Shown piece after piece: positions 17,050 to 39,016 of a stretch of DNA of 64,000 bases. A model generated the notes under the pieces. That model searched no databases. It was not told the origin of the DNA and saw nothing but the letters and a program-made list of their open reading frames with translations. Location: positions 1 to 64,000 of the forward strand of contig NZ_JAHEVJ010000002.1 of the NCBI RefSeq assembly GCF_018599245.1. The letters run 5' to 3'. Position 1 is the first letter of the stretch. Every line of letters starts with the position of its first letter. Position numbers and translations under genes: made by a program. The stretch is from Aliiroseovarius lamellibrachiae. GTDB taxonomy: Bacteria; Pseudomonadota; Alphaproteobacteria; Rhodobacterales; Rhodobacteraceae.

Positions 17050-18495
17050 ATGAGACGCTTACGGAATGTAAAAATTGTTGCCACTTTGGGACCCGCGTCC
17101 AACGACTACGACACCATTCGCGCGCTGTTTGAAGCGGGCGCAGATGTGTTTCGCCTGAATATGTCGCACGGCACCCATGAGGAACAACGCGCGCGCCACG
17201 CGATTGTGCGCCAAGTCGAAAAAGATCTGGACCGCCCGATCTGTATCCTTGCTGATTTGCAGGGGCCGAAACTGCGCTGTGGTACATTTGCGGCGGGAGC
17301 CACCGAGATTGAGGAAGGTCAGCCCTTCCGCTTTGATCTGGATGAGGCGCCCGGGGAAAGCCACCGCGTATGCTTGCCGCATCCTGAGATTTTTGCAGCC
17401 CTTGAGGTTGGCTCAACTTTGCTCGTCAACGACGGAAAACTGCGCTTGAAGGTGACGGATTGCTCGCCCGAGCACGCCAATTGCATTGTCGAAGTTGGCG
17501 GCACAATCTCAGACCGCAAAGGTGTGAACGTGCCGGACGTGTTGCTGCCACTGGCGGCTTTGTCGGAAAAAGACAAAAAAGACCTCGAATTTGCTTGTCA
17601 GATTGGCGTTGATTGGTTGGCGCTGAGCTTTGTTCAGCGTGCAGAAGACGTGGAAGAGGCGCGCGTGTTGGCGGGGGGCCGCGCTGCGGTCCTGTCGAAG
17701 ATTGAAAAACCTTCAGCCGTTGATCGTTTCGAAGACATTCTGAAGGCGTCAGATGGCATTATGGTCGCGCGCGGTGATCTGGGTGTTGAACTGCCGGTAC
17801 AAGCTGTGCCGCCCATTCAAAAGCGTCTTGTGAATGCCTGCCGCATCGCCGGTAAACCGGTGATCGTGGCGACGCAAATGCTGGAAAGCATGATTGAAAG
17901 CCCAATGCCCACGCGCGCCGAAGTGTCAGACGTGGCCAACGCCATTTATGACGGGGCCGATGCGGTGATGCTCTCGGCAGAAAGTGCCGCCGGACAGTAC
18001 CCTATCGAAGCGGTGTCCACGATGGATGCCGTCGCGATTGAGGTGGAGCATGACCCAACCTACCGCGAGCAGATCGAAGCCAGCCGCAGCCCGCTGAAGA
18101 CGTCTGTCGCGGATGGAATTGTCGCCGCCGCACGCGAGATCGCCGAAACCACGGATATCAAAGCAATCTGTTGTTTCACACAATCAGGAACAACCGCGCT
18201 GTTGACCGCGCGGGAACGCCCGCGTGTGCCGATCATTGCCTTGACCCCACTAAAAGGCACTGCGCGTCGCCTTTGCATGTCTTGGGGAACGAATTGTTTC
18301 GTCACCCCTGGTGAGGTGGAGCGGTTTAAAGCCGCCGTTGTTTCAGCCGCCCGCGCGGCGCGGTCCGCCGGGTTTGCAACTGAAGAAGATCAGATCGTTG
18401 TCACAGCGGGTGTTCCCTTTAACGTTCCGGGCACCACCAACATCCTTCGGGTTGCCCCATGTGATGAACGGTTGATTTTCGCGACAGACACCTAA
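17050..18495 (+). CDS. pyk: Pyruvate kinase
   Basis: Converts phosphoenolpyruvate and ADP to pyruvate and ATP, the last step of glycolysis. 481 residues, normal length. N-terminal KIVATLGPAS and FRLNMSHG, B domain about residues 70-165, substrate loop with the catalytic Lys in AAVLSKIEKPSAVD, the MVARGDLGVELP metal site with Glu and Asp, ATQMLESMIESPMPTRAEVSDVAN split over the active-site helix, and the C-terminal effector domain from about residue 345. AGGAG lies 7 bases before the ATG. Probably followed in the same unit by the small membrane protein gene. Confidence 0.96.
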   Translation: MRRLRNVKIVATLGPASNDYDTIRALFEAGADVFRLNMSHGTHEEQRARHAIVRQVEKDLDRPICILADLQGPKLRCGTFAAGATEIEEGQPFRFDLDEAPGESHRVCLPHPEIFAALEVGSTLLVNDGKLRLKVTDCSPEHANCIVEVGGTISDRKGVNVPDVLLPLAALSEKDKKDLEFACQIGVDWLALSFVQRAEDVEEARVLAGGRAAVLSKIEKPSAVDRFEDILKASDGIMVARGDLGVELPVQAVPPIQKRLVNACRIAGKPVIVATQMLESMIESPMPTRAEVSDVANAIYDGADAVMLSAESAAGQYPIEAVSTMDAVAIEVEHDPTYREQIEASRSPLKTSVADGIVAAAREIAETTDIKAICCFTQSGTTALLTARERPRVPIIALTPLKGTARRLCMSWGTNCFVTPGEVERFKAAVVSAARAARSAGFATEEDQIVVTAGVPFNVPGTTNILRVAPCDERLIFATDT

Positions 18496-29987: not shown

Positions 29988-30419
29988 TTACCGAACCACG
30001 TAAACCGAAGCATCCGAGTGGCGCACAATGCGCGCCGCATTTGGCCCCAGAAGATAGTCTTTGAAATCTGGGCGATGCGCCCCAATCACAATCAGATCTG
30101 CTTTGTTCAGTTTGGCGGTTTGCAGCACTTTTTCGTAGACCGAGCCAATGGCGACCACACGGCGCGCCCTGGCGTTTTCATCCGCTCCTAATGCATCCTC
30201 TACCATTTTGGACAAAAGCTCGTTTGCTTTGTCTTTGGCGGTCGAGATGTGGTGCTCTTCGAAATAGGCCCCTACAACGCTTGCCCCAAAGTCTGGCACA
30301 ACGGTGATCACATCAAGCGACGCCCCATCCAATGCGGCCAGCTTGGCGGCGATTTTTAGAACTTTTTGGTCCTCTTCGGGGCGGTTGATGTCAACGGCAC
30401 ATAGAATGGTTTTGGTCAT
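29988..30419 (-). CDS. Universal stress protein (TRAP-associated, UspF/G-like)
   Basis: 143 residues: MTKTILCAVDINRPEED start, VITVVPDFG strand, and the C-terminal IVIGAHRPDFKDYLLGPNAARIVRHSD block. The G-x2-G-x9-G-S/T nucleotide loop is of the variant DYLLGPNAARxVRH type seen in USPs linked to TRAP transporters; TeaD, which modulates the ectoine TRAP system TeaABC in Halomonas, is the studied example. Start overlaps the permease stop by four bases, so it is the last gene of the TRAP operon. A role in tuning transport is inferred. Confidence 0.87.
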   Translation of the reverse strand: MTKTILCAVDINRPEEDQKVLKIAAKLAALDGASLDVITVVPDFGASVVGAYFEEHHISTAKDKANELLSKMVEDALGADENARARRVVAIGSVYEKVLQTAKLNKADLIVIGAHRPDFKDYLLGPNAARIVRHSDASVYVVR

Positions 30420-33028
30420 GCTGTTGCTCCTTGGGTTTCAAGTTTGCGGGCGCGTCCGGTTTGCAGGAACGCAACCAAAGCCAAAAGCAGAAGGGCCGGA
30501 ATAAAGATCAGCTCTTTTGGCATTTGGATGGCGGTTGCTTGCACGCTTGTGATGGCCACAGGATCGTCACCGTAGAAGTCAAATGACGACAGTTTATCCG
30601 ACAGCTCGGTGCCAAAGGATGGCTCGTCCAGCTTTTGAACGTCGCCTTCAGGAACCAGTATCAGGCCAAGGGCGGCCATCCGGGCGTCTGCACCATCGGC
30701 ATCTGGAACAATCAGTGGCACGGTCAGGTCTTTCACCTCAAGCGTGTCAAAGTCTGGGCCCGATATCACTGTGCGCAGTTGGCTACCGGGTTCAGCGTCT
30801 GCCAAGGCTTGTGCAAAGCTTGCCGGGGCGATGTCGTCAAACGGTGGCTGGATTTGGTCCATGAAGAACCCCGGCCGGAACAGCGCAAAGGCGACAACCA
30901 GCAAGGCCACGGTTTCCCAGACTTTGGTTTTGGTCAGGAACCAGCCCATCGTCGCCGCGGTGAACACCAGAATGCCGACGGTTGCGACGATAAAGACGAT
31001 TACGCCTTGATACCAGGTGACATCAATCAGCAAGAGGTCCGTGTTGAAGATGAACACAAAGGGCAAGGCGACGGTGCGCAAACTGTAGAAGAACGCGATG
31101 AAGCCTGTACGGATGGCATCGCCACCAGACACAGCCGCCGCCGCAAAACTTGCAAGTCCCACAGGGGGCGTCACATCCGCCATGATCCCAAAGTAGAATA
31201 CAAAGAGATGCACGGCGATCAGCGGCACAACCAGCCCAGATTGCGCGCCAAGTTCCACGACCACGCCAACCATAAGCGAGCTGACCACGATATAGTTCGC
31301 GGTGGTCGGCAGGCCCATGCCAAGGATCAGCGACAGGATCGCCACAAAGATCAGCATGAGGATCAGATTGCCGCCCGAAAGGAACTCTACAAAGTCCGCC
31401 ATAACCTGACCAATACCGGTCAGCGATACGGTGCCCACGATGATCCCAGCGGTGGCCGTTGCAAGGCCGATGCCGATCATATTGCGCGCACCATCAATCA
31501 TGCCTTCGATCAGGTCCATAACACCTTCGCGCATGCGGGAAATGGCGTTCAGCTCGCCCCGGAACATTGCCTTCAGGGTCTTTTGCGTCAGCAAAATGCC
31601 AAACAAAAGCATGGTGGCCCAGAATGCGGACAGCCCGGGCGACTTTCGTTCAATCATCAGAAAGTAGACCAGCACGATGATGGGCATCAGATAGTACAGG
31701 CCGGATTTGTAGATCTTGGCCACATCAGGAAGCTCAACCACTTCTGCGTTGGGATCGTCTGGTTCCAGATCTTCGGTTTGCGCCGCGAGATAAACGAGGC
31801 CCACATAGATGACCAAAAGCAATAGCGTTAGAACCAGGCCTGACCCTGCTGGAAACAAAGATACGATCCAACCCACGGGGAATTGCGTTGCGTAACACAG
31901 CGCCGCGAAGCCCGCGAAAAACACGAACATGCCGCCAATGGTGCGGCCCATCGAGACCACTTTGTTGCCGATGGTCGGCATGTTGGTTTTCACCGCTTCA
32001 AGGTGCACGATGTAGACCAACGCGATGTAAGAAATCACGGCGGGCAAAAAGGCGTGGGTGATCACTTCGACATAAGAAATGCCCACATATTCCACCATCA
32101 AGAACGCCGCCGCGCCCATCACGGGGGGCATGATTTGCCCATTCACGGACGAGGCCACTTCGACCGCACCCGCTTTTTCAGCGGAAAACCCAACACGCTT
32201 CATCAAAGGAATGGTGAAGGTCCCGGTGGTGACCACGTTTGCGATCGATGACCCTGAAATCAGGCCGGTGGCGGCAGAGCCAACCACAGCTGCTTTTGCC
32301 GGGCCGCCGCGCAGGTGACCCAACGCGCCAAACGCCATTTTGATGAAATAGTTGCCCGCGCCAGCCTTATCCAAAAGCGCGCCGAAGAGCACAAACAGGA
32401 AGACAAATTTGGTCGAGACACCCAAAGCGATGCCAAAAACACCTTCGGATGTGATCCACATATGGCTCATGGCTTTGCGCAAAGATGCGCCCGCCCAGCG
32501 GATCTGATCCGGCACCACCTCTGAGGACCCCCAGAACACATAGCACAGAAACACAATCGCCAAGCCGACCATAACCGGACCCAAGGTGCGGAACGCGGCA
32601 ATGAATAAAAAGATCAGGCCAGCCAAAGCGAAATAGGCATCTGACGCATCCGCCAAGCCACCGTTGCCAACGATCTTTTCATAAAAGAAGAACCCGTACA
32701 TGGCCAGAAACGCCCCGCCGAGCCCCAACGCCCAATCATACCACGGGATGTGGTCGCGTGGGCTGGATTTGAACAGTGGATAGGCCATTGCTGCCAGAAA
32801 GACCGCAAATGCCAGATGGATTTGGCGTGCATTGTTGATCAAGTCGCCGCTGAGCACATAGTTGGAAATGGGCGATGCCAAAAGCACCTGAAAGACGGCC
32901 CAAACCAAGGCCACACCCGCAATCATCAATCCGACCCAGCCGGTTGGTGCGCGTGCGCCGCTGTCGCTTGCGGCCACCAGTTCCTGAAGCTCTTCTTCGC
33001 TTAAGGCGCGATTTTCGCTGTCAGCCAT
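30416..33028 (-). CDS. TRAP transporter fused permease (4TM/12TM, TAXI type)
   Basis: 870 residues. Small-subunit-like helices at the N-terminus (about 30-210) run into a large DctM-like domain with motifs such as FGALLDKAGAGNYFI, GGPAKAAVVGSAATGLISGSSIANVV (split), MPPVMGAAAFLMVEYVG and LGMGLPTTANYIV. About 18-20 membrane helices and a soluble segment near 750-840. The fused architecture is characteristic of TAXI-TRAP systems, which use an ion gradient and a periplasmic binding protein. Encoded between its binding protein (upstream, 100-base gap with a hairpin) and a USP. Confidence 0.93.
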   Translation of the reverse strand: MADSENRALSEEELQELVAASDSGARAPTGWVGLMIAGVALVWAVFQVLLASPISNYVLSGDLINNARQIHLAFAVFLAAMAYPLFKSSPRDHIPWYDWALGLGGAFLAMYGFFFYEKIVGNGGLADASDAYFALAGLIFLFIAAFRTLGPVMVGLAIVFLCYVFWGSSEVVPDQIRWAGASLRKAMSHMWITSEGVFGIALGVSTKFVFLFVLFGALLDKAGAGNYFIKMAFGALGHLRGGPAKAAVVGSAATGLISGSSIANVVTTGTFTIPLMKRVGFSAEKAGAVEVASSVNGQIMPPVMGAAAFLMVEYVGISYVEVITHAFLPAVISYIALVYIVHLEAVKTNMPTIGNKVVSMGRTIGGMFVFFAGFAALCYATQFPVGWIVSLFPAGSGLVLTLLLLVIYVGLVYLAAQTEDLEPDDPNAEVVELPDVAKIYKSGLYYLMPIIVLVYFLMIERKSPGLSAFWATMLLFGILLTQKTLKAMFRGELNAISRMREGVMDLIEGMIDGARNMIGIGLATATAGIIVGTVSLTGIGQVMADFVEFLSGGNLILMLIFVAILSLILGMGLPTTANYIVVSSLMVGVVVELGAQSGLVVPLIAVHLFVFYFGIMADVTPPVGLASFAAAAVSGGDAIRTGFIAFFYSLRTVALPFVFIFNTDLLLIDVTWYQGVIVFIVATVGILVFTAATMGWFLTKTKVWETVALLVVAFALFRPGFFMDQIQPPFDDIAPASFAQALADAEPGSQLRTVISGPDFDTLEVKDLTVPLIVPDADGADARMAALGLILVPEGDVQKLDEPSFGTELSDKLSSFDFYGDDPVAITSVQATAIQMPKELIFIPALLLLALVAFLQTGRARKLETQGATA

Positions 33029-33128: not shown

Positions 33129-34097
33129 TTATTTGATGATACCAGCTTCGCGGTAATACTTCTCAGCGCCGGGATGCAGTGGGGCTGACAGACCGGCAGT
33201 CGCCATTTCCTTGGGGTCAAGGTTGGCAAAGGCAGGGTGCAGACCTTTGAAGTCATCGATGTTTTCAAAGACCGATTTCACCAGCGCATACACAACATCA
33301 TCCGATACTTTGTCTGAGCTGACAAAGGTTGCGCCCACACCAAAGGTGGCCACGTCCGCGTCATTGCCGCGATACATGCCACCCGGAATGGTGGCCGCAC
33401 GATAGAAGGAATTGTCCTCGATCAGTTTGGCAACTTCGGGGCCGGACACTTCTACAAGCACGGAATCACAGGCTGTGGTTGCTTCTTGGATCGAACCCGA
33501 TGGGTGACCAACGGTGTAAACCATTGCGTCGATTTGATTGTCGCAGAGGGCTGCGGACTGTTCGGACGCCTTCAGCTCGGTGGCCAAAGCGAAATCATCC
33601 ATGGTCCAGCCAAGGGCGTCGACCAGAACTTCCATCGTGCCCCGCTGACCAGAACCAGGGTTGCCGATGTTGACGCGTTTGCCTTTCAGGTCGGCAAAGG
33701 TTTTGATGCCACTGTCGGCACGGGCCACAACGGTAAAGGGCTCTGGGTGTACGGAAAATACGGCGCGCAGACCTTTGAATGGGCCAGCATCTTTGAATTT
33801 CGAGGTACCGTTATAGGCGTGGTACTGCCAATCAGACTGCGCCACACCAAATTCCAGCTCGCCTTCGCGGATGGTGTTGATGTTGTAAACCGAGCCGCCG
33901 GTTGATTCGACCGAACAGCGCACGCCGTGTTCTTTACGGCCTTTATTCACCAGGCGGCAAATCGCACCGCCGGTTGGGTAATAAACACCCGTCACGCCAC
34001 CGGTCCCGATGGTGATGAATTCTTCGGCAAAGGCTGCCGGGGCCATGAGACCCGCAGCGGCCAGGCCGATTGCGGTGATTTTCAGCTTGTGGAACAT
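33129..34097 (-). CDS. TAXI-family TRAP transporter solute-binding protein
   Basis: 322 residues. Signal peptide at about 1-24 (KITAIGLAAAGLMAPAAFA), then the TAXI fold: FITIGTGGVTGVYYPTGGAI (in part), ELEFGVAQSDWQYHAYNG, and FADLKGKRVNIGNPGSG. Exported to the periplasm, where it would capture the substrate for the adjacent fused permease. Characterised TAXI proteins bind organic acids or glutamate-like compounds, but the ligand here is not predictable. Two cysteine pairs (near 47, 60 and later) could form disulfides. Confidence 0.9.
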   Translation of the reverse strand: MFHKLKITAIGLAAAGLMAPAAFAEEFITIGTGGVTGVYYPTGGAICRLVNKGRKEHGVRCSVESTGGSVYNINTIREGELEFGVAQSDWQYHAYNGTSKFKDAGPFKGLRAVFSVHPEPFTVVARADSGIKTFADLKGKRVNIGNPGSGQRGTMEVLVDALGWTMDDFALATELKASEQSAALCDNQIDAMVYTVGHPSGSIQEATTACDSVLVEVSGPEVAKLIEDNSFYRAATIPGGMYRGNDADVATFGVGATFVSSDKVSDDVVYALVKSVFENIDDFKGLHPAFANLDPKEMATAGLSAPLHPGAEKYYREAGIIK

Positions 34098-34113: not shown

Positions 34114-35001
34114 TCACTTGGTTGCTGATGTAACTGTCTCTTCGTCCGAAACCTCGGACAAAAGACGGTTGCTATCCTCGACGTCCGCGATGCGCAAGCG
34201 GGCCTTTTCGCCGGATCGGCTGACAAGTTTGCCAATCAGGACCTCCGCTAGAAACAACGTGGAAACGTAAGAAGAATAAAAATGCGGGCTATCTGAGGGA
34301 ACCACAAATCCCGCATGAGCGTGGCTGAGCGCGGGGCAGCTGTGCACATCTGTGATGACAATCACATAGGCTCCGCGTGCGTGCGCAATTTCGGCGGCTT
34401 TAATGACGTGGGCCGCAAAGGGCGGTTTGGTCACAACAATCAACGCGTCTTGCGATGAGATGTTGCTTAAACCGCTTCCCAAAGAGGCGCCCATCCGGCC
34501 CAGAAGCTGCCAGTTTTCGACACACATATTGGCCATGTAGCTCATGTATTCGATGATCCCAGTCGACCCCAATGCGCCAAGCAAATTGACGCGCCGTGCC
34601 TGACACAGCCTATCCACGGCGCGATTTAAAAGCTCATGGTCAATGCTTTCGGACAGCTGATTCAGATTTCCCTGACAGGCGGACAGATGCGCCGCCATAA
34701 AGTCAGATTTTCCGACACCATGGTCGTCCTGAAGGCGCTGGGCGCGATCGGCGAAATTATCAATCCGGCGGCCGATCTTTTGGCGAAATTCTTCGCGCAG
34801 ATCATCAAGGCCATCATATCCCAATGCACGGGACAAGCGCGTGTAAGCCGCTGGGGATCGTCCACTGGCCTTTGCAATCGCTCGAAGCGGACGGGTTGCT
34901 ATGTCGACCGGATTTTGCAGCACAAAATCCGCCGCCCCCTGCAACGTATCCGTTAGGTCGCCATAGCGGGCGGCCAATCTTTGTTCGAACGTTTTGGTCA
35001 A
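34114..35001 (-). CDS. MurR/RpiR-family transcriptional regulator
   Basis: 295 residues: N-terminal HTH_6 domain (about 1-80; ATRPLRAIAKASGRSPAAYTRLSRALG with the recognition helix) and a SIS sugar/acid-isomerase-like domain (about 130-260; VNLLGALGSTG, ALIVVTKPPFAAHVIKAAEIA). The start is a TTG preceded by a strong GGGGGGAA site. Lies upstream of the TAXI-TRAP genes on the same strand and divergent from the aminotransferase gene, so it likely controls both directions through the repeats at 35034-35093. Confidence 0.87.
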   Translation of the reverse strand: MTKTFEQRLAARYGDLTDTLQGAADFVLQNPVDIATRPLRAIAKASGRSPAAYTRLSRALGYDGLDDLREEFRQKIGRRIDNFADRAQRLQDDHGVGKSDFMAAHLSACQGNLNQLSESIDHELLNRAVDRLCQARRVNLLGALGSTGIIEYMSYMANMCVENWQLLGRMGASLGSGLSNISSQDALIVVTKPPFAAHVIKAAEIAHARGAYVIVITDVHSCPALSHAHAGFVVPSDSPHFYSSYVSTLFLAEVLIGKLVSRSGEKARLRIADVEDSNRLLSEVSDEETVTSATK

Positions 35002-35008
35002 GCTTCCC

Positions 35009-35093
35009 CCCTGAAATGGCAGCCTGCGACGTATTGTTTCAGGGATTGTTCATTTTGTTTCACTCCATGTCAACTCTTGACTGATTTGTTTCA
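35009..35093. promoter_or_regulatory. TTGTTTCA repeat array (candidate RpiR operator)
   Basis: TTGTTTCA occurs exactly at 35034-35041, 35055-35062 and 35086-35093 (steps of 21 and 31 bases, two and three helical turns), with a shortened TTGTTCA at 35046-35052. CCCTGAAA (35009-35016) and TTTCAGGG (35037-35044) add an inverted repeat. All lie between the divergent rpiR-type regulator and the aminotransferase. Confidence 0.6.
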
Positions 35094-35125
35094 ATCGCGC
35101 TATGGCGAATGGGAATGAGGACGCC

Positions 35126-36445
35126 ATGACACATATATTTCCACGCCACACCAAGCTTAACCCACCCGTCGCAGAGCGCGGAGAGGGCATCTATCTCATT
35201 GATAAATCAGGAAAGAAATACCTTGATGGGTCCGGCGGTGCGGCTGTGTCATGCTTGGGGCACTCTGATCCCGATGTGCTGGACGCCATGCGCGCGCAGA
35301 TGGAGAAGCTGTCCTTTGCGCACACGGGGTTCCTGACATCCGAACCCGCCGAATCGCTTGCGGACCGTCTGATTGCCCATGCGCCAGAGGGCATTGAACG
35401 GGTCTATGTGGTGTCCGGCGGGTCAGAAGCGGTCGAAGCGGCGCTTAAGCTTTCGCGTCAATACATGATTGAAATCGGTCAGCCACAGCGCAGGAAATTC
35501 ATTTCGCGCAAGCAAAGCTATCACGGCAATACGCTGGGGGCTTTGGGCACCGGCGGCAACATGTGGCGCCGTGAACCGTTTGATCCGGTGATGGTCTCGG
35601 CCAGTCATATCAACGCCTGTTACGAATATCGCCTGCGCGAAGAGGGCGAAACCGAAGAGGACTATGGCCTGCGCGCGGCAAATGAGCTTGAGGCCGAATT
35701 GCTACGCCAAGGCCCCGAAACCGTGGTGGCCTTTTTGGCCGAACCTGTTGTGGGCGCAACCGCTGGCGCGGTGCCCGCCGTGAAAGGGTACTTCAAACGT
35801 ATCCGCGAGATTTGTGATCAATATGGCATCCTGTTGATCTTGGATGAGGTCATGTGTGGCATGGGCCGCACGGGCACGCTGTTTGCTTGCGAACAGGATG
35901 AGGTGTCGCCAGATATCTTGACCATCGCAAAGGGACTTGGCGCGGGGTATCAGCCGATTGGTGCGATGCTGTGCTCCGGCAAGATCTATCAGGCGATCGA
36001 AGAGGGATCCGGTTTTTTTCAACACGGTCACACCTATATTGGCCATCCCATTGCCGCTGCCGCCGCAGATGCGGTTGTGAAAAAACTTACCGAAGGCGGG
36101 ATGGTCGCGCGCTCGGCGCAAATGGGTGCGGTGCTGCAAAATGCGTTGCTGGCAGAGTTCGGCCAGCATCCAAATGTGGGGGACATTCGCGGGCGCGGCA
36201 TGTTCCGTGGGTTAGAACTGGTGCAGGATCGCGACAGCAAAACCCCCTTTGATCGCAGCTTAAACGTTGCGGCTCGGCTGAAGAAACAAGCGATGGCCAA
36301 TGGGTTGATCTGTTACCCGATGAGCGGAACCATTGATGGTCAATCAGGTGATCATGTCCTGCTCGCCCCGCCGTTTATCATCACCGAGGATCAAATCGCC
36401 GAGCTTGTCTCGAAGCTGACGCAATCACTGAGGGACGTTCTGTGA
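35126..36445 (+). CDS. Class III (omega/beta-amino acid type) PLP aminotransferase
   Basis: 439 residues of fold-type I, class III. Features: GEGIYLIDKSGKKYLDGSGG, the SGGSEAVEAALKLSRQY phosphate-binding region, KQSYHGNTLGALGTGG, the ILDEVMCGMGRTG cofactor Asp, and the PLP lysine in TIAKGLGAGYQP. ATG 35126 is preferred over ATG 35102 because AGGA lies just upstream and the family starts here. The class uses omega-amines, beta-amino acids and related compounds; annotation as aspartate aminotransferase family is only a broad label. Stop overlaps the BKACE start (TGATG). Confidence 0.87.
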   Translation: MTHIFPRHTKLNPPVAERGEGIYLIDKSGKKYLDGSGGAAVSCLGHSDPDVLDAMRAQMEKLSFAHTGFLTSEPAESLADRLIAHAPEGIERVYVVSGGSEAVEAALKLSRQYMIEIGQPQRRKFISRKQSYHGNTLGALGTGGNMWRREPFDPVMVSASHINACYEYRLREEGETEEDYGLRAANELEAELLRQGPETVVAFLAEPVVGATAGAVPAVKGYFKRIREICDQYGILLILDEVMCGMGRTGTLFACEQDEVSPDILTIAKGLGAGYQPIGAMLCSGKIYQAIEEGSGFFQHGHTYIGHPIAAAAADAVVKKLTEGGMVARSAQMGAVLQNALLAEFGQHPNVGDIRGRGMFRGLELVQDRDSKTPFDRSLNVAARLKKQAMANGLICYPMSGTIDGQSGDHVLLAPPFIITEDQIAELVSKLTQSLRDVL

Positions 36446-37215
36446 TGGCGTTGCCGCGTATCATGGTTGCCCCCAATGGGGCGCGAAAGTTGAAAGCCGA
36501 CCACCCCGCTGTGCCCCTGACCGAAGATGAGATTGTCGCCTGCGCGCGCGATTGTTTCGTGGCGGGTGCGGATGGGTTGCATCTGCATATTCGTGACGCG
36601 GATGGTGGGCATTTGTTGGACGCAAAGACGTACCAATCTGCGGTCAGCGCGGTGGCGCGTGCGGTGCCGGACATGGCCATCCAGATCACCACCGAGGCGG
36701 TTGGGACTTACGGAACCGAGGTGCAAAAACAGGTGGCGTTGAATTCCGGCGCCAGCATGGTGTCGGTGTCCATCGCTGAGATGTGTCGCGATGGTGAGCA
36801 TGCGGCACAGTTGTTTTACGCAGAATGCGCCGCCCGAGGGATTGCCGTTCAGCACATTCTTTATGACGTCGCGGATGCCGCCCTGTTGGCCCGTGTGCTG
36901 CCTGAAGCTTTGTTCCGGGCGGGGGCTTTACAGGTGTTGTTTGTGTTGGGGCGTTACAGCGAAAGCCAAACCTCTGACCCGGACGAATTGACGCCGTTTT
37001 TGGATTGGATGTCGCAAGAAGACCTTTCCCCGGATTGGGCGCTGTGTGCCTTTGGTCCACGAGAAACGGAGTGTCTTGCGCGCGCGTCCGAGGCCGGGGG
37101 GAAATGTCGGATCGGGTTTGAAAACTCGCTTTTTATGGCGGATGGGCGTGTGGCCAAAGACAATGCGGAACGTGTGGCGGAATTGGTCGCACGGCTCGCG
37201 TCGGACGGTCGGTAA
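36445..37215 (+). CDS. Beta-keto acid cleavage enzyme (BKACE, DUF849; Kce-like)
   Basis: 256 residues, TIM-barrel zinc enzyme. It carries the metal-binding HxH in GLHLHIRD (near residues 45-47), ITTEAVGTYG, and the C-terminal Glu ligand in IGFENSLF. BKACE enzymes condense a beta-keto acid with acetyl-CoA and release acetoacetate plus a new CoA ester; Kce of lysine fermentation uses 3-keto-5-aminohexanoate. At 256 residues it is a little shorter than typical members. Coupled to the upstream aminotransferase, which presumably makes its beta-keto acid. Confidence 0.85.
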   Translation: MALPRIMVAPNGARKLKADHPAVPLTEDEIVACARDCFVAGADGLHLHIRDADGGHLLDAKTYQSAVSAVARAVPDMAIQITTEAVGTYGTEVQKQVALNSGASMVSVSIAEMCRDGEHAAQLFYAECAARGIAVQHILYDVADAALLARVLPEALFRAGALQVLFVLGRYSESQTSDPDELTPFLDWMSQEDLSPDWALCAFGPRETECLARASEAGGKCRIGFENSLFMADGRVAKDNAERVAELVARLASDGR

Positions 37216-37282: not shown

Positions 37283-38401
37283 TCAGATTTCCAGAGCTTG
37301 CTCGCCGGTGATGCTTTCCATACCTAACGCCTCGCCAACGGCCGCATAGGTCAGTTTGCCCGCGTGTACGTTCAAGCCGTTCAAGAGGTGCTTGTCAGCA
37401 GCACAAGCGGCTTTCCAGCCTTTGTCGGCCAAGGCCAGCATGAAAGGCATGGTCGCATTGCCAAGCGCGATGGTCGAGGTGCGTGCAACGGCGCCCGGCA
37501 TGTTGGCCACGCAATAATGCATCACGCCGTCCACTTCATAGACAGGGTCTGCGTGGGTGGTGGCTTTTGAGGTTTCAAAGCACCCACCTTGGTCGATTGC
37601 AACATCCACCAGAACCGCGCCGGGTTTCATGGTCGACAGCTGCGCGCGGCTGATCAGTTTGGGGGCCGCCGCACCCGGGATCAGAACCGCACCGATGACC
37701 ATGTCGGCGGTGGTGATCAGTTCAGCCGTGGCCGCAGCGGTGGAGTATTGGTTCTTGAAGGTACCGCCGAAAACGTCGTCAAGATAGCGAAGGCGTGGGA
37801 TTGAACGATCAAGGATGGTCACATCTGCGCCCATGCCAGCGGCGATTTTCGCAGCATGCGTGCCAACGACGCCACCGCCGATCACAACCACTTTGGCCGG
37901 ACCAACACCGGGAACGCCACCCATCAGAACGCCGCGACCGCCATTGGCTTTTTGCAAGGTCCACGACCCAACTTGGGGGGCCAAACGACCGGCAACTTCG
38001 GACATTGGGGCCAGCAAAGGCAGGCCGCCACGGTCGTCGGTTACGGTTTCATAGGCGATGCAGGTCGCGCCAGAAGCGAGCAGATCTTTGGTTTGCTCGG
38101 GGTCGGGGGCGAGGTGCAGGTATGTGAACAACAGCTGACCTTCGCGCAGCATCTTACGCTCAATCGCTTGGGGTTCTTTCACCTTTACGATCATGTCGGC
38201 TTTGGCGAACACTTCTTCCGCGGTGGCGATGATTTCAGCACCAACCGAGGTGTAATCTTCGTCAGAAAACCCAGCGCCCATGCCGGCGTTGGTTTCAACA
38301 ATCACCGAATGACCGCGGCCAATGGCTTCATGTGCGGCGGCGGGGGTCAGCCCCACACGGAATTCTTGGGGTTTGATTTCTTTCGGGCAACCGATCAGCA
38401 T
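37283..38401 (-). CDS. ald: Alanine dehydrogenase
   Basis: NAD-dependent oxidative deamination of L-alanine to pyruvate and ammonia. 372 residues: [20 protein letters not shown] start with substrate Arg, KVKEPQ with the catalytic Lys region, TYLHLAPD with active-site His, and Rossmann [23 protein letters not shown] site lies just before this ATG; a longer reading frame upstream has no family similarity. Divergent from an Lrp-type regulator, the standard ald arrangement. Confidence 0.95.
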
Positions 38402-38525
38402 GGGAAAATCCTCCGCTCCCTGAGCATTGTTTTTAAACTGCCCTAATTTTGTGCAGATCCCCCGTGCAATTGCTTTGTAAATTACACCGCATTTCCACTG
38501 GTATTGACGAAGGAATGAGCGTAAA

Positions 38526-38542
38526 TTGCGTGTTCTACGCAA
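38526..38542 (+). promoter_or_regulatory. Candidate Lrp-type operator upstream of lrp
   Basis: TTGCGTGTTCTACGCAA is a perfect inverted repeat (TTGCG-N7-CGCAA) about 16 bases before the regulator's start, overlapping its ribosome-binding region. Suggests autoregulation and control of divergent ald. Confidence 0.5.
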
Positions 38543-38557
38543 GGAATGTGTGAGAAT

Positions 38558-39016
38558 ATGGAATTAGACAGCATAGATCGTCGTATCCTTGGGGTGCTTC
38601 AGAAGACCGGAAGAATCTCTAATGCGGACCTGTCAGACCGGGTGAATCTGTCGCCATCAGCCTGTCATCGGCGGGTTCAGCGGCTCGAGGCGGAGGGGTT
38701 TATCAAAGATTATGTGGCGCTTTTGGATGCGCGCAAAATGGATTGCCCCTCGACGATCTTTGTCGAGATCACCTTGTCGGGGCAAGCGGACGAGCTGTTG
38801 GATGCGTTTGAGCGCGAGGTCGCTTTGGTGCCGGACGTTTTGGAATGCCACTTGATGGCGGGCAAGTCGGATTACCTGTTGAAGGTGGTTGCAGAAGACA
38901 CCGAAGATTTTGCCCGCATCCACCGACAGTATCTCGCGCGCTTGCCGGGGGTGCAGGGCATGCAATCCAGCTTTGCCCTGCGCACTGTGTTTAAAACCAC
39001 GGCGCTGCCGGTCTAA
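38558..39016 (+). CDS. Lrp/AsnC-family regulator (probable activator of ald)
   Basis: 152 residues. N-terminal winged helix ([24 protein letters not shown] in two helices, [19 protein letters not shown] recognition helix) and a C-terminal RAM/ligand-binding domain (about 70-150) with [20 protein letters not shown]. Usually senses alanine or other amino acids when beside ald. ATG 38558 begins at the family N-terminus; ATG 38546 would add four residues and has an AAGGA site too close. Its TAA stop is also the first bases of the repeat element that follows. Confidence 0.87.

Follow-up and report, generated by a model that had tools for sequence, protein, structure and literature searches.

We identified a conserved composite site at 35056–35093, between divergent rpiR and class III aminotransferase genes of Aliiroseovarius lamellibrachiae, that is with good confidence the operator of the adjacent RpiR regulator, placing the rpiR–TRAP–usp and aminotransferase–BKACE operons under joint control, probably by repression. 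This prediction is grounded in the conservation of the site, its spacing, its linkage to rpiR and its overlap with a consensus promoter. All coordinates refer to the window, the whole stretch of 64,000 nucleotides that was analyzed.

The site lies in a 124-bp gap (35002–35125), both sides of which are likely operon heads. The genes around the gap are:

29988–30419, minus strand: universal stress protein gene (usp), overlapping the end of the permease gene
30416–33028, minus strand: fused TRAP permease gene with a C-terminal DUF3394 domain
33129–34097, minus strand: gene for a TAXI-family TRAP solute-binding protein, 16 bp beyond rpiR
34114–35001, minus strand: rpiR, encoding an HTH_6 + SIS regulator, with a TTG start
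35126–36445, plus strand: class III aminotransferase gene (NCBIfam NF005685, 758.4 bits, cut-off 485)
36442–37215, plus strand: member of the BKACE family (beta-keto acid cleavage enzymes), overlapping the stop codon of the aminotransferase gene

The likely aminotransferase start at 35126 is preceded by GAGG. The original prediction had placed the targets on the aminotransferase side, which we retain, and we add targets to the left, namely the TRAP genes and rpiR itself. The BKACE gene is followed directly, at 37283–39016, by another small regulated pair, an alanine dehydrogenase gene and, divergent from it, one for an Lrp/AsnC-type regulator.

Three exact copies of TTGTTTCA were found on the same strand of the gap (35034–35041, 35055–35062 and 35086–35093), with spacings of 21 and 31 bp, precisely where they had been reported. 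The octamer was over-represented in the window (11 matches vs 3.52 expected; 0 of 100 shuffles reached 11), and it was the sole window octamer with three non-overlapping same-strand copies within 60 bp. Such a triplet of any octamer occurred in one of 100 dinucleotide-shuffled windows, none with TTGTTTCA, and in none of 5000 shuffles of the 124-bp intergenic stretch; the TTGTTTCA triplet is thus unusual, beyond what shuffling yields. Two further copies, 167 bp apart, stand on the plus strand at 18171 and 18338. The elements of the gap are:

35009–35044, no strand: CCCTGAAA/TTTCAGGG inverted repeat
35034–35041, plus strand: octamer 1, outside the conserved site
35045–35050, minus strand: -10 hexamer AACAAT of the predicted rpiR promoter
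35048–35053, plus strand: degenerate half-site D1, GTTCAT in the window, 9 bp before D2
35055–35062, plus strand: octamer 2 (half-site D2), inside the spacer that separates the hexamers of the predicted rpiR promoter; averages 1.64 bits of information per position over 41 loci
35056–35093, plus strand: predicted composite operator TGTTTCA-N5-TGTCAA-N13-TGTTTCA, 0 mismatches to the pattern in the window
35068–35073, minus strand: -35 hexamer TTGACA of the predicted rpiR promoter, which is the constant composite center TGTCAA read backwards
35078–35085, minus strand: eroded left arm of the D4 palindrome, TGACTGAT, 5/8 match to TGAAACAT
35086–35093, plus strand: octamer 3 (half-site D4), on the aminotransferase side; mean information 1.68 bits (41 loci)

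Relatives of rpiR (E ≤ 1e-40) were present in 36 of 198 family genomes, each of another genus, and in 20 of the 21 genomes of the window's genus. Conservation was counted over 72 rpiR loci (L002–L050 and L086–L108) out of 96 distinct rpiR places, the other 24 being the lowest-scoring; a divergent aminotransferase or BKACE gene was present in 66 of the 72. Two loci were dropped before counting: L001, identical to the window, and L051, a likely duplicate from a Rhodobacteraceae MAG (UBA2553) whose printed region and identity values equal those of G205 (L032). Upstream of the rpiR relatives, the pattern GTTTCA (in part of the loci)–3 bp–TGTTTCA–5 bp–TGTCAA–13 bp–TGTTTCA was found in otherwise variable intergenic DNA. 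Octamers 2 and 3 contain the two TGTTTCA elements, which are the constant ends of the composite.

Over the 20 fixed bases of the composite, the 66 linked loci showed 0 mismatches in 43 cases, 1 in 8 and 2 in 4, giving 55 of 66 with at most two; the rest had 3 (five loci), 5 (four), 7 (one) or 10 (one). The six loci lacking an aminotransferase or BKACE neighbor had 2 mismatches (two loci) or 3 (four loci), and the best composite match inside each of the 72 rpiR bodies, used as a control, had 6 to 10. The pattern had been derived from the first 49 loci, and the fair test is thus the 23 loci fetched later, of which 16 had at most two mismatches (0 in 14, 1 in one, 2 in one), with 3 mismatches in three and 5 in four. 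A regulator-type site conserved upstream of orthologous rpiR/aminotransferase pairs, as the original prediction had proposed, is therefore borne out by these 55 loci, and the phylogenetic footprinting that it had suggested as a check found octamers 2 and 3 kept within the composite. The composite lies next to rpiR and is conserved with it, as expected of an RpiR operator. Across 41 loci, the elements carried 1.64–1.69 bits per position vs 0.19–0.21 for the flanks, values that lean high because L020, L030 and all loci lacking a divergent aminotransferase or BKACE gene were omitted. An exact GTTTCA was present at D1 in 8 of the 21 non-genus family loci among these 41. No site was found upstream of rpiR in L020, and L030 had the palindrome only, with the rest of the composite absent. 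Conservation within the genus partly reflects kinship.

The spacing of the octamer pair around the center was 31 bp in 53 of the 66 linked loci, 32 bp in 4 and only 40 bp in 3, with no pair in 6. All 20 loci of the window's genus had the 31-bp spacing. The four 32-bp loci (L103, L105, L106 and L108) were all the fetched loci of genus g211, with the same elements and 5 mismatches each. Among the six loci without an aminotransferase or BKACE neighbor, the pair was 40 bp apart in five and 31 bp apart in one. Taken alone, two spacings close to whole helical turns are weak evidence of phasing; of the proposed pair, the 31-bp interval is conserved, and the 21-bp interval was present in 2 of 72 loci, namely the window and the relative that is 95% identical to it. 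Octamer 1 was likewise confined to the window and this closest relative (2/72), so it was rejected as a conserved part of the site and the triplet does not hold as a functional unit. The nearby CCCTGAAA/TTTCAGGG inverted repeat (arms at 35009–35016 and 35037–35044), which had been noted beside the octamers, was found only in the window among the loci examined (1/72), being broken even in the 95%-identical relative; it was rejected as a conserved element and is probably accidental. By eye, its left arm adjoins a C-run that is the complement of the likely rpiR ribosome-binding site.

A search for the composite (≤2 mismatches) in the 198 family genomes recruited 25 sites in 24 genomes, 23 of which adjoin rpiR by position, while the reversed pattern gave a single match. 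The zero-mismatch composite in G176 (L059) was rejected as a chance match inside an open frame (1146–1724), and the second composite in G013 (L076, 2 mismatches) was also taken as chance; neither locus had a match to seven window proteins (tblastn, E 1e-3). The aminotransferase (E ≤ 1e-165) was found in 113 of the 198 genomes, 34 with rpiR and 79 without it (rpiR E ≤ 1e-40). The composite was present in 21 of the 34 vs 0 of the 79 (Fisher p = 2.6e-14, not corrected for kinship, so that the independence of these related genomes is overstated); at ≤2 mismatches it was not found in the other 13 genomes carrying both genes. Presence of the site tracks the regulator more closely than the target. 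In the window's own genome, TTGTTTCA-N10-15-TTGTTTCA and the composite each occurred once, and a search for more targets with TGAAACNNNNGTTTCA (1 mismatch) gave 9 places vs 14 for the reversed control, no excess. At E ≤ 1e-60, rpiR was found in 52 of 390 genomes drawn from the order (the family make-up of the 390 was not given), all 52 in the window's family. In L024 (2443–3840), an rpiR relative faces an FAD-type oxidoreductase gene, and the site there holds TGAAACAGATGTTTCA. Inspection by eye of L018, L027, L028 and L029 showed the same neighbor, and these loci, like L024, keep a TGAAAC-N4-GTTTCA-like palindrome.

Eight loci of the 79 genomes with the aminotransferase and no rpiR were read, picked among those of highest identity. 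One of them, L109 (G105:C24:178400-184500), has the cluster with no rpiR between the divergent operons, at identities to the window's cluster of 77% (aminotransferase), 83% (binding protein), 84% (permease) and 71% (usp). Its site keeps TTGTCAA, with AGTTTCA as the left element and TGGTTGA, with two bases changed, as the right (3 mismatches in total), and this locus is probably a natural loss of the regulator with a partly decayed operator. The decay is modest, since 5 of the 66 linked rpiR-bearing loci likewise have 3 mismatches. The seven other rpiR-less loci had 5 to 11 mismatches to the composite.

The composite and the predicted rpiR promoter overlap, octamer 2 standing in the spacer and D1 on the -10 box. 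This promoter, TTGACA-17-AACAAT on the minus strand, was the only promoter-like match found (10/12), a single match mildly above the shuffle mean of 0.3. TTGTCAA was present in 62 of the 72 rpiR loci, with ATGTCAA as the window's variant. On the aminotransferase strand there was no promoter among the computed matches. Two candidates there were set aside: TTGACT(35077)-17-CTATGG, which is weak, not conserved and outside the computed matches, and TTGTCA-17-TTCAAT, an alternative noticed by eye that was not convincing.

From this arrangement we infer how RpiR would bind, in which oligomeric state, with which sign of control and in answer to which ligand. Two GTTTCA half-sites stand three helical turns apart, so that they would present one DNA face on either side of the shared TGTCAA. 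RpiR, probably as two dimers or a tetramer, would bind both, with octamer 2 and the degenerate D1 covering the predicted rpiR promoter and octamer 3 covering the start region of the aminotransferase operon. Phased sites on both operon heads, together with a regulator family of dimers or tetramers, point to joint repression of rpiR–TRAP–usp and aminotransferase–BKACE with autoregulation, which a substrate or intermediate of the pathway would relieve by binding the SIS domain.

Alternatively, RpiR may be an activator that sits beside promoter elements and recruits RNA polymerase when bound to its ligand, which we regard as improbable. Excerpts of a preprint (PMC12713135) provide a precedent in SpNanR, an RpiR-family protein that regulates the sialic acid operons of Streptococcus pneumoniae, whose site TCTGAAAGTACTTTTAGA is a similar near-palindrome and for which bridging to a degenerate half-site 23 bp away was proposed; its authors call this activator a unique case, the other family members being repressors. 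The lack of a computed promoter match on the aminotransferase strand would also suit a weak, activated promoter. Octamer 2 inside the predicted rpiR promoter, however, favors polymerase exclusion, and G105, which keeps both operons without rpiR between them, may point the same way.

Binding of the repeats by another protein, such as ParB at a half parS or a LacI-type regulator with TGAAAC/GTTTCA half-sites, is far less probable. A parS site consists of the facing arms TGTTTCAC/GTGAAACA, and TGTTTCAC in the window resembles one half of it; here, however, it is followed by TCCATGTCAA, with no facing arm, the two constant elements are in direct orientation, and 23 of the 25 composite sites adjoin rpiR. 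That the repeats are chance or promoter-only sequence is hardly credible, for although TTGTCAA is a promoter part and persists in the rpiR-less G105, the TGTTTCA elements stay the same where the intergenic DNA around them is not conserved, and the composite is absent from 79 of 79 genomes with the aminotransferase and no rpiR.

The form of the RpiR site varies between related loci. In many of them, octamer 3 forms the right half of the inverted repeat TGAAACAT|ATGTTTCA. The left arm of this repeat is eroded in the window, where it agrees with TGAAACAT at 5 of 8 bases; in the 20 genus loci it agrees at 1 to 5 of 8. The 49 RpiR proteins placed in a quick tree fell into two supported sides. In the loci that group apart from the window, the left arm adjoining octamer 3 mostly resembles TGAAACAT, which gives a palindrome (exceptions L011 and L020); in those that group with it, this arm is for the most part GATTCAT-like or eroded (exceptions L009 and L013), with the two direct elements constant. 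A bolder reading, which we hold less likely than not, is that RpiR in the window's clade has largely dispensed with palindromic recognition. Each dimer of a tetramer would place one HTH on one of two direct half-sites exactly three turns apart, so that the protein clamps the -35 box lying between the two divergent operons, and its SIS domain, which has no phosphate loop, would respond to a ligand resembling an amino acid.

The regulator belongs to the RpiR/MurR family by its Pfam domains HTH_6 (30.0 bits, cut-off 28.3) and SIS (37.5 bits, cut-off 25). Six named RpiR equivalogs of NCBIfam matched, all below their cut-offs, among them SapR (52.2/500), HexR (45.9/296) and AlsR (36.7/400). Its SIS loop (residues 189–198) reads TKPPFA, vs the Ser/Thr-rich SSSGST of 4ivn (VvNanR). 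All 30 printed loop variants (55 of 72 loci) fit T/S-K/Q/M-x-P-F/Y. The protein is thus without the Ser/Thr-rich phosphate loop of sugar-phosphate-sensing RpiR regulators, a trait of that subgroup and not of the family. Because the loop reads TKPPFA, its ligand is probably not a phosphosugar, and the sequence suggests a non-phosphorylated one. BKACE enzymes act on beta-keto acids, and therefore a beta-amino acid resembling glutamate, such as beta-glutamate, which yields 3-oxoglutarate on transamination, would fit both the enzymes and the transporter. The closest solved relative of the TRAP binding protein by sequence is VcGluP (PDB 8S4J, E 1.3e-138), which excerpts of PMC11574862 describe as a glutamate-specific TAXI TRAP binding protein of Vibrio cholerae. 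According to PMC12632250, a TAXI system serves glutamate uptake in Cereibacter sphaeroides. The likely ligand class is a glutamate-like or beta-amino acid, or its keto acid, and the two operons would serve to take up and degrade a nutrient of amino-acid-like character.

Among the matches listed, no publication described this operator by title or abstract. Like SpNanR, the system combines an RpiR-family protein with a TGAAA-type near-palindrome, poor in the window, and in SpNanR a second, degenerate half-site at a set distance led to a proposal of tetramer bridging; RpiR regulators or their SIS domains are tetrameric in crystal structures, as excerpted from the same preprint (PMC12713135). SpNanR differs in being an activator with a phosphosugar ligand, a half-site 23 bp off and a Ser/Thr loop that holds the phosphate; in the window, direct half-sites flank a -35 box at a distance of 31 bp, and RpiR lacks such a loop. 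RccR of Pseudomonas, as described in excerpts of PMC5489143, is an RpiR-family regulator that uses one half-site sequence with two linker lengths, in TGTAGT/ACTACA inverted repeats of 15 or 28 bp at several loci, with KDPG as ligand, whereas in the window one local site was found and its half-sites are in direct orientation. HexR, a glucose catabolism repressor, similarly has sites in intergenic regions that include that of its own gene (zwf/hexR), but its site is TTGT-N7-8-ACAA and its pathway one of sugar acids (the same excerpts of PMC5489143).

The type of switch is familiar, and the predicted operator for an unstudied regulator is new. It provides a precise predicted operator and a set of two target operons for this regulator, which belongs to a single bacterial family. 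Direct half-sites set three turns apart and the class of the ligand are the features that deserve experimental work, and the loci with a palindrome in one clade and direct half-sites in the other offer a series for studying how the sites of dimeric regulators evolve. With the operator predicted, the ligand of RpiR, and hence the substrate of the TAXI-TRAP/aminotransferase/BKACE pathway, becomes findable by reporter or gel shift.
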